Shown here: in pieces, positions 5,641-57,550 of the stretch
How the letters are laid out: every line of letters begins with the position of its first letter
Numbering within the stretch: the stretch's first letter is position 1
NCBI RefSeq assembly: GCF_024178165.1
Contig: NZ_JAMZIE010000001.1
Location: forward strand, 248,001 to 312,000
Length of the DNA: 64,000 bases
DNA from: Halohasta salina
GTDB taxonomy: Archaea > Halobacteriota > Halobacteria > Halobacteriales > Haloferacaceae
Direction: 5' to 3'
Position numbers and translations under genes: made by a program
The notes under the pieces: generated by a model
What the model saw: only the letters and a program-made list of their open reading frames with translations
Databases searched by the model: none
What the model was told of the DNA's origin: nothing

Positions 5641-6969
5641 CTACGCATTTGGATCTAGTAGTAACGTGGTCGACGTCCCGTCACTGAACCACAACGTAAT
5701 GGTCACGCTGCTGCCTTTCATGGCACCATTACCGTTACTGGCGTCCCTGAACCGATCGAACTCAAACAATTGTTCGTTATTTTGAGCAATCACAACATCC
5801 GTACTGAAATTGTATCTATTTGCTTGATTTGGGTTGTCGCTGTCTATTTGTATGACATCTGAAACAATTTGACCGTAGCCTACCGCAGTGAGTATATCAT
5901 CGTTACTCTTCCCACCAACCTTCTCAACTGAAGATACTGTTGTATCATTCACACCGATAGCAACAATTGTTGCATCGATATCGCCTGTATTTTCTAATCC
6001 AAATTCATACATCCCACTATTACCTGCAGACTTGACATCCGGTGTTACTTGGATTGCACCGGCTTGCCCCTCATCGCTGTCATCACTAGTATCGCCGTTT
6101 TCGTCGCTCCTACGTTGACTCGACGGCCCTACATTCTGTTTTGGTTGGTCGGCTTCCGGTTTCTCTCTAATACCGACAGTGTTGAATTTGAAATTGTTCG
6201 AACTGATACTCAGATTGCTTAGGTCAAGCCTGTGGACGCCGGTATCGTAGTAGTCTTCCGTCACGTCGACATCCGAACCGAATTGTTCGCCCCAGTATTC
6301 CGACTTGTTCAGACGAGTCGGGATCGTGATATCGATTTCGCCCTCTGGCAAATCGGACTCGGTTATTTTTTCGCTCGGATAGATCTCGATAACCGCTCGA
6401 TGTGTGCCTGTTTCCTCAAACTCGTTTTGGACGGCGGTAAGCCGGAACGAACTACTGCGGTTCGTCATCAGGTTCTGATCCTCGATGATGCGTACTGTCC
6501 CCTGATTTCTCTCGTCGACGTACAGCACCGAGTGCTCGTACCAGATCGAGCCAGCCGTTATTTCGTTGTATCGTGGTTCGTATTCGAGAAACCGTGTCGA
6601 CACGTTCTTCGAAACATCCCCGTTGTCGACGGTGATATTGTACTCGTCGGACGTTCTGAGCGTTCCGGCCGGGGCGACGGGATTGATCGTTGCCACCCGA
6701 GTCTGGTAGGTCGTTCCCAGCGTCACGCGTGTGAATTGTGAGGTATCCGCCTGTCCTGCCGTCGAGATGGAGTTTCGGAGTTGAATGAGATCGTTCTGAA
6801 CGTTCTGGTAGTGTTGAAATTCGACCTGCGCGTTTTGCTGCGGGACAATTTGGGCTTGATAGATCGTCAGGGTGAGGGCCAATATTGCAAAGATCAAAAT
6901 CAACCCAAGGACGGCTGTTACAGCGCGTCTATCGTCACCAAACGTCGTGTTTGAATTGAAACGAGACAT
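5641..6969 (-). CDS. Pilin-like surface protein (DUF7289-type), paralogue 1
   Basis: This 442-residue protein has one hydrophobic helix at about residues 15-42 (RAVTAVLGLILIFAILALTL) after a short charged segment. That layout is like archaeal type IV pilins and their minor-pilin relatives. The motif IVPQQNAQVEFQH follows the helix. The rest is beta-rich and extracellular in character, with several N-x-S/T sequons. Residues 40-265 are clearly homologous to the neighbouring gene, while the last third is not: it has a short Ser/Asp linker near 275 and a separate C-terminal domain. The 3' half (about 5640-6200) is visibly more AT-rich than its surroundings, which suggests replacement or transfer of the C-terminal domain. 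It lies 12 bases downstream of the paralogue, probably co-transcribed. Confidence 0.75.
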   Translation of the reverse strand: MSRFNSNTTFGDDRRAVTAVLGLILIFAILALTLTIYQAQIVPQQNAQVEFQHYQNVQNDLIQLRNSISTAGQADTSQFTRVTLGTTYQTRVATINPVAPAGTLRTSDEYNITVDNGDVSKNVSTRFLEYEPRYNEITAGSIWYEHSVLYVDERNQGTVRIIEDQNLMTNRSSSFRLTAVQNEFEETGTHRAVIEIYPSEKITESDLPEGEIDITIPTRLNKSEYWGEQFGSDVDVTEDYYDTGVHRLDLSNLSISSNNFKFNTVGIREKPEADQPKQNVGPSSQRRSDENGDTSDDSDEGQAGAIQVTPDVKSAGNSGMYEFGLENTGDIDATIVAIGVNDTTVSSVEKVGGKSNDDILTAVGYGQIVSDVIQIDSDNPNQANRYNFSTDVVIAQNNEQLFEFDRFRDASNGNGAMKGSSVTITLWFSDGTSTTLLLDPNA

Positions 6970-6981
6970 GTTAGTCAGACC

Positions 6982-8670
6982 TCATGGCGACCATCGGATT
7001 ACAACGACCCCGTCGCCCCCGTCGCCCGGGAGTGGACCCCCACTGGAGCCGCCACCACCGCCGCCACTACCGGTGTTCGGTCGACCGTTCCCTGCAGGGT
7101 CTCCACCCGTCACAGTCCCATCGCCCCCACCGCCCCGACCGCCCGAGCCTCCGGTCGAACTGCCGGTGCTGCCGCCGCCACCGCCGCCTGCAGCAACCCA
7201 GCCGCCGACGCCGATATCGGTCCCGAACCGATCGCCGAAGTACGTCCCGTCGCCTCCGTCACCACCGTCGTCGTTGCTGTTCGGCCGCCCTGCTTCGCCG
7301 GAACCGCCGCCGCCACCGGCACCTTGGTCGTTGCCGCTGCCTCCTTGCCCCTCGCCACCATCGGTGCCGAAGCCCCCACTGGAATTGCTTGGCTGCAGTC
7401 CGTCTCCTCCCGAAAGCGTGTCATCTTCGTCTCTCGATCCACCCCCAGAGCCGCCGGCTCGACCGGGTGAGGGATCCGGACTGTTGCCGCCGCCGCCACC
7501 GCCGCCGAGGGCGACGAGCGAACCGAACTCGGAGTTACTTCCGTTTTCTCCCGGTTGGTCACCGCTCGGAGCCGTTCCTCCAGCACCGACGACGACATCA
7601 ACCTGAGATCCTGTCACCGAGTAGCTCGGTCGATAGACGACGCCGCCCGCGCCGCCTCCGCCGCCACCAGCAGTGTTGTAGTCTTCTACGGAGCCGCCAC
7701 TCCCACCGCCAGCAACGACGAGTACTTCGACCTCGTTGACTCCCTCAGGGATGGTCCATGTATGAGCGCCTACAGTATCGAAAACACGGATGTTAGCGTC
7801 GACGCTACTGTCGGTCGAGCGTTCGACGTTCGTTGCAGGGCCTTCGGCCGGTTCGGCCTGGATTCCCACTGTGTTCACCTGTAGATCGGTAGAATTGACG
7901 CTCAAATTCAGTGCGTGGACGTCGTCTGAGTGTGCCTCGGAGTCGACGCCCTGATAGATACCGCCGGAGTCAGCCAGTGCGCCGTCCCAGTAATCACTGT
8001 CATTTAGCCGCGTTGGGACGGTAACTGTGAGATTGGATCCGTTCGCCGCCGGAAAATCACTCGCGTTCAGTTCGTCTTGCGGGTACAGTTCGAGCGTCAC
8101 ACGCCCAATATCAGATTTTTGGAACTGGTTTTGGAGCGCAGTAATCCGTACTGTTCCGTCTTTGACGATGTTTTGCTCTTCGATGACGCTCACGCCGCCG
8201 CGGTCCCGCTCGTCGAGGTAGAGCACCGAGTGCTCGAACCACGTCGACCCGATCGAGATCTCGTTGTAACCCGGCCGGTACTGGACGAATCGGGTCGAAA
8301 TATTCGTTTGTGATCCGGACGCGTTCGCGATGGTGATATTGTATGCCTTGCTGGTCTGTATCGTCCCGGCCGGGTCAGGTTGATTAATGGTCAGGAGTCG
8401 GGATCGGTAGCTCGTCCCGAGCGTGACGCTTGGGAACTGCGCAACATCGGACTGCCCGGCGGTCGACACTGCGTCCCGAAACTCGATCAGTTCGTTACGG
8501 ACGTCCTCGAAATGTTGGAACTCGGTCTGGGCGTTTTGCTGGGGGACGACCACCGCCTGATAGGTCGTCAACGCGAGGACCAGAAACCCGAAGACAAGAA
8601 TGAAGCCGACGACCTCTGAGACGCCACGCCGGTCGGTCGCCAGCTTTCCCCCGGAGCCTCGATCACGCAT
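6982..8670 (-). CDS. Pilin-like surface protein with poly-glycine C-terminal domain, paralogue 2
   Basis: This 562-residue protein is counted from the ATG at 8670, which places the charged MRDRGSGGK segment directly before the pilin-like helix (SEVVGFILVFGFLVLALTTY). The frame is open further upstream, but those residues look non-coding. Residues 20-290 match the neighbouring paralogue. From about residue 305 an aromatic/Val-rich strand (AHTWTIPEGVNEVEVLVVAG) leads into about 250 residues of long glycine runs broken by short polar turns, ending GDGGDGVVVIRWSP. That pattern resembles Gly-rich domains of phage tail adhesins and other surface adhesins, which fold as packed polyglycine II helices. 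The domain call is by pattern only. Likely exported and anchored by the N-terminal helix. Confidence 0.75.
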   Translation of the reverse strand: MRDRGSGGKLATDRRGVSEVVGFILVFGFLVLALTTYQAVVVPQQNAQTEFQHFEDVRNELIEFRDAVSTAGQSDVAQFPSVTLGTSYRSRLLTINQPDPAGTIQTSKAYNITIANASGSQTNISTRFVQYRPGYNEISIGSTWFEHSVLYLDERDRGGVSVIEEQNIVKDGTVRITALQNQFQKSDIGRVTLELYPQDELNASDFPAANGSNLTVTVPTRLNDSDYWDGALADSGGIYQGVDSEAHSDDVHALNLSVNSTDLQVNTVGIQAEPAEGPATNVERSTDSSVDANIRVFDTVGAHTWTIPEGVNEVEVLVVAGGGSGGSVEDYNTAGGGGGGAGGVVYRPSYSVTGSQVDVVVGAGGTAPSGDQPGENGSNSEFGSLVALGGGGGGGNSPDPSPGRAGGSGGGSRDEDDTLSGGDGLQPSNSSGGFGTDGGEGQGGSGNDQGAGGGGGSGEAGRPNSNDDGGDGGDGTYFGDRFGTDIGVGGWVAAGGGGGGSTGSSTGGSGGRGGGGDGTVTGGDPAGNGRPNTGSGGGGGGSSGGPLPGDGGDGVVVIRWSP

Positions 8671-9023
8671 TGTCCGGTGCTCCAATCGGTATCCGCCTGC
8701 TGGTAGTGTGATGGTTGTTCCTATCGGAGAACCGATATCGCAGTCGACGAAGCGGTCGGATCGGTGCGTCGATGGCCGCCGAACTCCTCGTATTTCTCCG
8801 GGCCTCACAATCGATCAACGCCGCCAAACGAAAACCTGCGGTCGGAATAGGCCAGTTTCGAGACGGACGACCGATTCCAGTCATCTGATACTGACCAATC
8901 GGGTTTTGTGCATATAAATACGCGGCAGAGTGATTGTTTGGCTATCACTTCCTGCCGTCGGGTTCGACAGTCGACGTATATACTATCGACACACCCATAT
9001 GCACCGTCTCGCAATCCCCTCTT
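8671..9023. other. Divergent intergenic region
   Basis: These 353 bases lie between the Gly-rich pilin-like gene and HMG-CoA synthase. A TATA-like CCATATG at 8995-9001 sits about 26 bases before the HMG-CoA synthase ATG. ORFs crossing the region have no recognisable protein character. Nothing else was identified. Confidence 0.5.
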
Positions 9024-10364
9024 ATGACTCCTGTCGGCATCGACGCCGTCGAGATCTGGACCGGTAAACTCCAGTTGAACCTCCCGGAGACGTTCGCGCC
9101 CGCCAAAGACGAAGACCCCGACAAGTACCGCAAGGGGATCGGCCTCGAACACTCCTCGTTCCCCGACCTCTACGAGGATATCGTCACGATGGGCGCCAAC
9201 GCGGCCAAGCGCCTCATGGAGCGCCGCGGGCTGACGCCCGAGGACATCGGCCGGATCGACGTCGCCACCGAGTCGGCGTTCGACAACTCCAAACCGGTGT
9301 CGACCTACATCGCGGGCTGTCTCGAACAGTACTTCGAGGCGGATTTCCGCCACGCCAACAAGGGCGAGCGCAAGTTCGCCTGCGTCGCCGGCACCCAGTC
9401 GATCGACGACGCCTACAACTGGATCCGCGCCGGCCGCAACCGCGGCCGCGCCGCCCTCGTCATCGCCACCGACACCGCCCTCTATGCCCGCGGAGATCCG
9501 GGCGAAGCCACGCAGGGCGCGGGTGCGGTCGCCATGCTGGTCGACGAGAACCCCGACCTCGTGGAGATCTCGACCGAGCAGGGGTACGGCAGCATGGACG
9601 AGACGGACTTCCTCAAACCCAACCAGCAGTTCCCCTCCGTCGACGGCAAGCGGTCGATGCAGGTGTATCTCTCGCGGATGCGGGAGGCCGTCGAGGACTT
9701 CGAATCCGTCGCGTGGGACATGCACCCCGACGATTTCGCCTACATTCCGTTCCACACGCCGTTCCCGGGGATGGTCCGGAAGGCCGCCCTGCTGGGCTAC
9801 CGGCACATGAGCCGCGACACCGAGATCGAAGACGAACTCGCAGGCGAGATCGGTCGACAGCCCCGTCGGGACGAGTACACCTCGTGGGACGGCTACGAGG
9901 AGGCGATCCGCGACTACATGGACGACCTCAAGGGAACCGACCAGTACCGCGCGTGGTACGACAAGGCCATCGAGCCCACCCTCGGCATCTCGCGGCACGT
10001 CGGCAACTGGTACACCGGCTCGGTCCACATCGCCCGCATCGCCGCCCTCAAATACGCCGCCGCAAACGACCGCGATCTCGCCGGCGAGAAGCTGCTGGTC
10101 GGCTCGTACGGCTCGGGCGCCCAGGCCGAGATCCACGCTGAGACGGTCCAGGAGGGCTGGCGCGAGGAGATCGCGGGCCTCAACGTCGACGCCCAACTCG
10201 ATGCCCGCTACGACCTGAGCTTCGAGGAGTACGAGACGGTCCACGACAGCCACAACTACGACAAGGGCAGCGTCGACGTCGAGGAGTTCACCAGCCCGGA
10301 CGACGAGTTCGTCTTCACCGGCTGGGGCCGGATGAACGAGCGGAAATACGAGTACGTCGAGTAA
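9024..10364 (+). CDS. hmgB: Hydroxymethylglutaryl-CoA synthase
   Basis: This 446-residue thiolase-superfamily enzyme condenses acetyl-CoA with acetoacetyl-CoA to HMG-CoA, the committed precursor for mevalonate and archaeal isoprenoid lipids. The nucleophile is C120 in FACVAGTQS. The general-acid Glu is in VATESAFD (E83), and the catalytic His is in the IPFHTPFPGM segment near residue 240. The ATG at 9024 is preferred over the longer open frame because MTPVGIDAVEIWTG is a typical family N-terminus and a TATA-like element lies about 26 bases upstream. The convergent COG1709 regulator ends 15 bases downstream; in methanogens (MJ1545/MJ1546) the same two genes are neighbours. Confidence 0.93.
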   Translation: MTPVGIDAVEIWTGKLQLNLPETFAPAKDEDPDKYRKGIGLEHSSFPDLYEDIVTMGANAAKRLMERRGLTPEDIGRIDVATESAFDNSKPVSTYIAGCLEQYFEADFRHANKGERKFACVAGTQSIDDAYNWIRAGRNRGRAALVIATDTALYARGDPGEATQGAGAVAMLVDENPDLVEISTEQGYGSMDETDFLKPNQQFPSVDGKRSMQVYLSRMREAVEDFESVAWDMHPDDFAYIPFHTPFPGMVRKAALLGYRHMSRDTEIEDELAGEIGRQPRRDEYTSWDGYEEAIRDYMDDLKGTDQYRAWYDKAIEPTLGISRHVGNWYTGSVHIARIAALKYAAANDRDLAGEKLLVGSYGSGAQAEIHAETVQEGWREEIAGLNVDAQLDARYDLSFEEYETVHDSHNYDKGSVDVEEFTSPDDEFVFTGWGRMNERKYEYVE

Positions 10365-57052: not shown

Positions 57053-57550
57053 ATGTGGCCCCCGGTTCCGTTCCGCGAGTCCCCGCATCGACACCCAACA
57101 CGTGGCAGCGCGCCGCTCGTCGGCAGCCTGCTGGTCGTCGGGCTGGCCGTCGTCGTCGCGACCGTCGCGGCGACCGCGCTCGTCGGCGTCGACACCGCCC
57201 CCGAACCCGCGCCGACAGCGGCGGTCGAACTGTCGGTCGACGGCGACACGCTGCGGTTTACTCACGAGAGCGGCGACACGCTTGACGTCCGAACGCTGTC
57301 GGTTCGGATCCTCGTAGACGGCGAACCACTGGCCCACCAGCCGCCGGTCCCGTTTTTCTCGTCGACCGGGTTCGAACCCGGCCCGACCGGGCCGTTCAAC
57401 TCCGCGAGCGATCCCGAGTGGTCGGCCGGCGAAACCGCGAGCCTGACTGTCGCGAGCACCAACAGCCCGACGATCGAGTCGGGATCGATCGTCTCGGTGC
57501 GACTGACGACCGACGCTGGACGGGTTATCCGGCTCGAAACGGAGGCGTAG
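57053..57550 (+). CDS. Type IV pilin-like protein
   Basis: This 165-residue protein has a short N-terminal segment with RGSAPLVGSLLVVGLAVVVA, as in archaeal type IV pilins after the prepilin cleavage site. It is followed by a beta-rich domain (ELSVDGDTLRFTHESGDTLD, then VDGEPLAHQPPVPFFSSTGF and GPFNSASDPEWSAGETASL), a pattern frequent in haloarchaeal pilins. ATG 57053 is chosen because a TATA-like element sits about 28 bases upstream; ATG 57032 is possible. Convergent with the methyltransferase gene with no spacer. Confidence 0.75.
   Translation: MWPPVPFRESPHRHPTRGSAPLVGSLLVVGLAVVVATVAATALVGVDTAPEPAPTAAVELSVDGDTLRFTHESGDTLDVRTLSVRILVDGEPLAHQPPVPFFSSTGFEPGPTGPFNSASDPEWSAGETASLTVASTNSPTIESGSIVSVRLTTDAGRVIRLETEA

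Follow-up and report, generated by a model that had tools for sequence, protein, structure and literature searches.

Tandem pilin-like surface proteins of Halohasta salina with replaceable C-terminal heads, one of them resembling a phage tail glycine-rich domain

Two tandem genes of the haloarchaeon Halohasta salina encode pilin-like surface proteins that share an N-terminal module and carry unrelated C-terminal modules, one of which resembles the glycine-rich domains of phage tails. The genes occupy a conserved slot between DUF2150 and HMG-CoA synthase genes, where even closely related species differ by replacement of the C-terminus. We consider it probable that PibD processes the two products, here P1 and P2, and that they are modular minor pilins or pilin-anchored adhesins whose tips can be exchanged; the slot looks like a place where the cell exchanges what it sticks to. 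This reading provides a testable function for an unnamed and nearly universal surface-protein family of these haloarchaea. It carries the modular-pilin concept over to archaea, on the direct evidence that heads are replaced at one fixed slot, and it connects a surface protein of the host with a domain of halovirus tail type. It also bears on the means by which haloarchaea modulate their adhesion, their choice of mating partner and their sensitivity to viruses. In the open-licence literature we found no paper naming DUF7289, the domain family that the shared module resembles, and no description of the archaeal family, its slot or its virus-type tip.

Both genes are intact open reading frames on the minus strand of the window (the whole stretch of 64,000 nucleotides analysed). 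P1 (442 aa) lies at 5641..6969 and P2 (562 aa, with a Gly_rich_2 C-terminus) at 6982..8670, in the same direction and 12 bp apart. BLASTP aligns residues 1-291 of P1 with residues 1-293 of P2 (46% identity, E 2e-87) and returns nothing significant past this shared N-terminal part, in agreement with the initial annotation, which had described the C-termini as unrelated. That annotation had also proposed a pilin-type helix and a common domain of about 230 residues: the sharing holds, but the length is about 275 residues, the common part extending over about 270-290 residues at 46-48% identity. The shared N-module, consisting of the helix and a stalk domain, covers residues 1-274 of P2 (7849..8670, minus strand; 46-48% identical to P1) and, from the alignment to P2 and the family motif, residues 1-271 of P1 (6157..6969, minus strand), where the prepilin-type site reads RAVT. 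Sequence comparison finds the C-terminal module of P1 (residues 272-442; 5644..6156, minus strand) unrelated to that of P2. The latter is a Gly_rich_2 domain at about residues 299-561 (6988..7776, minus strand), assigned by profile, shuffles and predicted fold; glycine accounts for 38% of residues 299-560, as expected from the glycine-dominated region first noticed there. Both proteins are acidic (pI 4.2-4.3), contain no cysteine and have 8-11 N-glycosylation sequons each, features that fit secreted haloarchaeal pilin-like proteins. A long proline-rich ORF on the opposite strand was discarded as an antisense shadow. Silent head cassettes at the locus were also rejected, the gaps between P1 and P2 (12 bp) and to DUF2150 (27 bp) being too small.

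The pair is flanked on one side by DUF2150 (PF09920; 5032..5613, plus strand), identified by a profile match and found as the same flank in relatives. On the other side lies 8934..10364 (plus strand), whose product we take, from its known family, to be HMG-CoA synthase, and which in relatives starts at about 9024. The HMG-CoA synthase next to the pilin-like gene is 74-90% identical in relatives. In Halohasta, an N-module gene is present between these two flanks in one or two copies. We then sampled 20 further genomes from weaker N-module matches, at one locus each: HMG-CoA synthase stands on one side in 18 of them and DUF2150 on the other in 17. The same gene order is found at two loci outside the query family, in one Haloarculaceae and one Halobacteriales genome. 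In many haloarchaeal genera, the pilin-like gene remains between DUF2150 and HMG-CoA synthase while its C-terminus changes. HMG-CoA synthase was not seen in the stretch read at loci L041-L044, L052-L054, L057, L232 and L233, and DUF2150 gave no match at the HMG-CoA-synthase-linked loci L045-L051. Two separate lineages have, adjacent to the slot, a protein with a PilA-like pilin N-terminus (L037:5695-6354 and L051:9170-10714), the second having a long extracellular part. The first member of a tandem pair in Halohasta litorea (L035:4001-4822) is a headless N-module of 273 aa that overlaps the following gene by 4 bp.

Slot proteins range from about 360 (364) to about 1000 aa across relatives, and their heads include Laminin_G_3 (lectin-like), PA14, PKD, Big_1/invasin D3 (Ig-type), CARDB and bactofilin-like domains. 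The initial annotation had suggested that distal domains are swapped on a shared stalk, and comparison of the locus in close relatives supports this, revealing a conserved stalk and changed heads. The clearest case is a pair of loci, L049 and L050, whose N-modules are 89% identical and whose C-termini are 27% identical, no more than shuffled sequences give (median 26%, 95th percentile 31%). At the DNA level, identity in this pair is 69-99% over the N-module, drops to about 43% across the head, and recovers to 87-100% in the gene that follows; flanking DNA of such close species is 92-100% identical. A second pair, L046 and L047, behaves similarly (86% and 32%), and the nearest relative of P2 (L038) combines an N-module 75% identical with a different and shorter head. 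Some similar heads are found on distant carriers: the P1 C-terminal module is 31% identical to the tip of L050, from another genus, and the head of L041 resembles that of L049. Other pairs keep the same head (L045 and L051, 69%). The glycine-rich region is absent from the related intact proteins of three other Halohasta genomes, an absence that the initial annotation had named as evidence against its reading; however, another intact C-terminus (in one copy, none) stands in its place, which is what domain swapping predicts. Homologous recombination in the conserved stalk and flank would probably exchange the heads, with surface binding differing between close relatives as a result. Relative to HMG-CoA synthase, the N-module has a reduced third-position GC in almost all genomes compared, and the head most often an even lower one, as might be expected of often-exchanged genes. 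In the window, P1 and P2 (5641-8670) have a third-position GC of 0.42-0.70, against 0.87-0.92 in three other genes.

At the N-terminus of both P1 and P2, a short leader is followed by a prepilin-type site (R-A/G-V-S/T) and then a hydrophobic helix, and hydropathy analysis detects no second hydrophobic segment after residue 50 in either protein. In P2, this N-terminus (8557..8670, minus strand) comprises a leader of residues 1-16 ending in TDRRG, and the predicted cut precedes VSEVVGFILVFGFLVLALTTYQ (residues 17-38). The RGVS site of P2 is of the same type as RAVS and DAVS, which are listed for PibD-processed Haloferax PilA pilins (PMC4371748), and the R-A/G motif is kept in all N-module family members examined. 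Sequence, hydropathy and the motif across relatives agree in giving both proteins the elements of a class III signal peptide: leader, R/K-G/A site and hydrophobic helix. This prepilin-type signal peptide would be cut by PibD. It is from this signal peptide that the N-terminal module is putatively assigned as a pilin. Archaeal PilA-type pilins (Pilin_N, PF07790) share the leader, the R-A/G-V-S site and the hydrophobic helix, whereas neither P1 nor P2 matches Pilin_N in a Pfam profile search, and their extracellular part is much larger; some relatives match weakly. The stalk appears to belong to a haloarchaeal, DUF7289-like family. The P2 N-module scores 23.0 bits against DUF7289 (PF23960), below the Pfam cut-off of 27, P1 matches no Pfam family, and one relative (L214) passes the cut-off with 27.5 bits over 229 of 238 positions. 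The AlphaFold2 model of the N-module, from a six-sequence alignment, is poor (pLDDT 43), and its support for a pilin fold of the stalk goes no further than a long helix predicted at residues 15-72. The module is present in 163 of the 171 genomes of the taxonomic family and was not found in the viral contigs searched; in the relatives compared, it is 28-75% identical to that of P2. The H. salina genome contains a third, diverged paralogue (L056:6602-7807, contig C24), which adjoins a Pilin_N match.

P1 and P2 might instead be membrane-tethered surface proteins, with the helix as an anchor, cut or uncut, a stalk spanning the S-layer and a variable head. This alternative overlaps our preferred explanation, from which it differs in whether a filament is involved, and we judge it a serious contender, somewhat short of an even chance. 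It draws on the large and variable size of the proteins (relatives run from 364 to about 1000 aa), those near 900-1000 aa being large for a filament subunit, on DUF7289 having no known function, and on the occurrence of archaeal class III signal peptides on non-pilus proteins such as the bindosome (PMC4371748). Nor are pilus assembly genes seen beside the locus; Haloferax, too, does not co-regulate its adhesion pilin genes with those for assembly (PMC4371748). The tethered arrangement sits less well with the prepilin-type site being kept in all members examined, and with the presence of PilA-like genes next to the slot at L037 and L051, which represent two lineages. In favour of modular pilins, relatives score against Pilin_N and DUF7289, and the genome carries a PibD-type peptidase, T2SSE ATPases and nine Pilin_N matches elsewhere. 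In the modular pilins or pilin-anchored adhesins that we propose, the hydrophobic helix would sit in the membrane or pack into a type IV filament, in the latter case with the protein probably serving as a minor subunit or a rare one at the tip; the conserved stalk, of about 200 residues, would span the S-layer, and the C-terminal module would act as a binding head. A Pilin_N match of 40 bits at 57110-57313 of the window (plus strand) is probably another pilin gene.

Modular pilins are known from bacteria, where adhesive domains are grafted onto a pilin (PMC8179133; review in PMC10191384), and by analogy the design of P1 and P2 would work in the same way. The Streptococcus sanguinis PilB and PilC pilins (Raynaud et al. 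2021, PMC8179133) similarly join a prepilin-type N-terminus to a grafted C-terminal module, and the modules listed for bacterial modular pilins include Laminin_G_3 (PF13385) and PA14, both of which also occur in the haloarchaeal family (PMC8179133). An additional C-terminal domain that is not specific to pilus biology can be clearly recognized by profile in P2 (Gly_rich_2) and in relatives (lectin-like, PA14, PKD). Unlike PilB and PilC, the P1/P2 family is archaeal, uses a different carrier (~270 residues), occupies one conserved slot and shows frequent head replacement. The published description covers the modular design in bacteria and leaves archaea unmentioned (PMC8179133), and the filament membership of P1 and P2 is putative.

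The head of P2 is related by homology to phage tail domains. Residues 299-560 match Gly_rich_2 (PF21722) with 76.5 bits (E 3.9e-21, positions 2-225 of 226), against a curated cut-off of 24.3 bits, and PHROG matches are to tail fibre and unknown-protein families, the best being phrog_2295 (7e-54). With such a glycine content, the region could be a low-complexity expansion devoid of folded structure, a reading that we regard as highly improbable. A profile built without P2 scores the real domain at 130 bits, whereas the maximum is -22 over 1000 full shuffles and 42.5 over 1000 glycine-fixed shuffles; the real sequence stands so far above its shuffles that the homology is specific, and a match due to composition alone was ruled out. 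Non-glycine positions are moreover conserved across viruses and archaea. The AlphaFold2 model of the head, computed with 55 viral relatives, is confident (pLDDT 89, pTM 0.89), as opposed to disorder. Foldseek matches it in the PDB to the Bxb1 tail tip (E 5e-8) and the Pam3 fibre (E 5e-6), followed with weak scores by ALK/LTK glycine-rich domains, and also to 252 viral models at E up to 0.001. These predictions give the P2 head the fold of phage tail tip and fibre glycine-rich domains, and with the profile match they bear out the likeness to phage tail adhesins that had been proposed from the glycine pattern. Compared with the Bxb1 tail tip (9d93) and the Pam3 fibre (7ypx), the P2 head is the same domain by profile and matches in predicted fold, but theirs is on the virion and that of P2 on a cellular pilin-like stalk. 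Against the solved tail structures, TM-scores reach modest values (0.44-0.50), and the loops are therefore not arranged identically. A TNF-like base with glycine-rich loops has been described for Pam3 gp24, together with a hypervariable tip for which receptor binding is proposed (PMC9608196). The P2 head, if an adhesin, would likewise combine a beta-sandwich base with packed glycine-rich loops, whose variable tips would bind a ligand on a surface in the manner suggested for the tips of phage tail fibres.

Gly_rich_2 occurs in 3 of 171 family genomes, on a P1/P2-type carrier only in H. salina P2, and in 6 of 392 class genomes, where it is found in P2, in secreted proteins and in proteins that look like proviral tails, an assignment resting on their repeats. 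A tblastn search with the P2 glycine-rich domain produced no match in phages or viral contigs, an outcome probably due to the masking of low-complexity sequence by BLAST; searching with a degenerate DNA pattern of the C-terminal motif was successful. In a tree of about 160 Gly_rich_2 domains, P2 pairs with HrrHF2_520 (AAL55001.2) of Halorubrum virus HF2 (support 0.76), joined next by a contig resembling a marine myovirus (0.93) and a methanogen-type sequence (0.96). HrrHF2_520 is the best-matching Gly_rich_2 domain, at about 48% identity; its virus has a haloarchaeal host, and an FGTxxGxxGW motif is common to it and P2 and present in 0 of 157 other domains. We grade the pairing as likely, not proven, since glycine dominates these sequences. 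Sharing of a halovirus-type head with a host protein is the least expected part of these results.

A defensive role, in which the P2 head would be a halovirus tail module acquired by the cell and used against viruses, for example by blocking or mimicking receptor binding, as opposed to general adhesion, would account for the closeness to HF2 in the tree and for the exclusive motif. We nevertheless think it quite unlikely: the relationship to HF2 is not recent, no other viral genes are seen at the locus, the other heads of the slot are ordinary adhesin domains, and methanogen-type archaea carry the same domain, in one case on a pilin. This last protein (L066:1501-3714, G470), from a genome of the same phylum, combines Pilin_N, four TIG domains and a C-terminal Gly_rich_2; it is an independent archaeal pilin ending in this domain, with a carrier and spacer that differ from those of P2. 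A more speculative and rather doubtful generalization of the modular-pilin reading extends it to the whole haloarchaeal class: next to HMG-CoA synthase there would be an 'adhesin slot' where a single pilin-like carrier takes up exchangeable heads, some of them traded with haloviruses, virus and host sharing a pool of receptor-binding domains.

HrrHF2_520 differs from P2 in being a stand-alone gene, which adjoins the baseplate genes of HF2. A glycine-rich host-range adhesin has been described in hafunaviruses (PMC8651126). The idea that HrrHF2_520 is this adhesin was dropped: the relatives checked do not have it there, and a second glycine-rich protein of HF2, of another type and near VP1, counts against it. 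In HF1-like haloviruses (L210:5314-7232 and L211-L213), the gene product next to PAAR (baseplate assembly protein V) has a constant N-terminus and a changed distal part, while in HF2 the protein beside PAAR is shorter and a separate Gly_rich_2 gene adjoins it.
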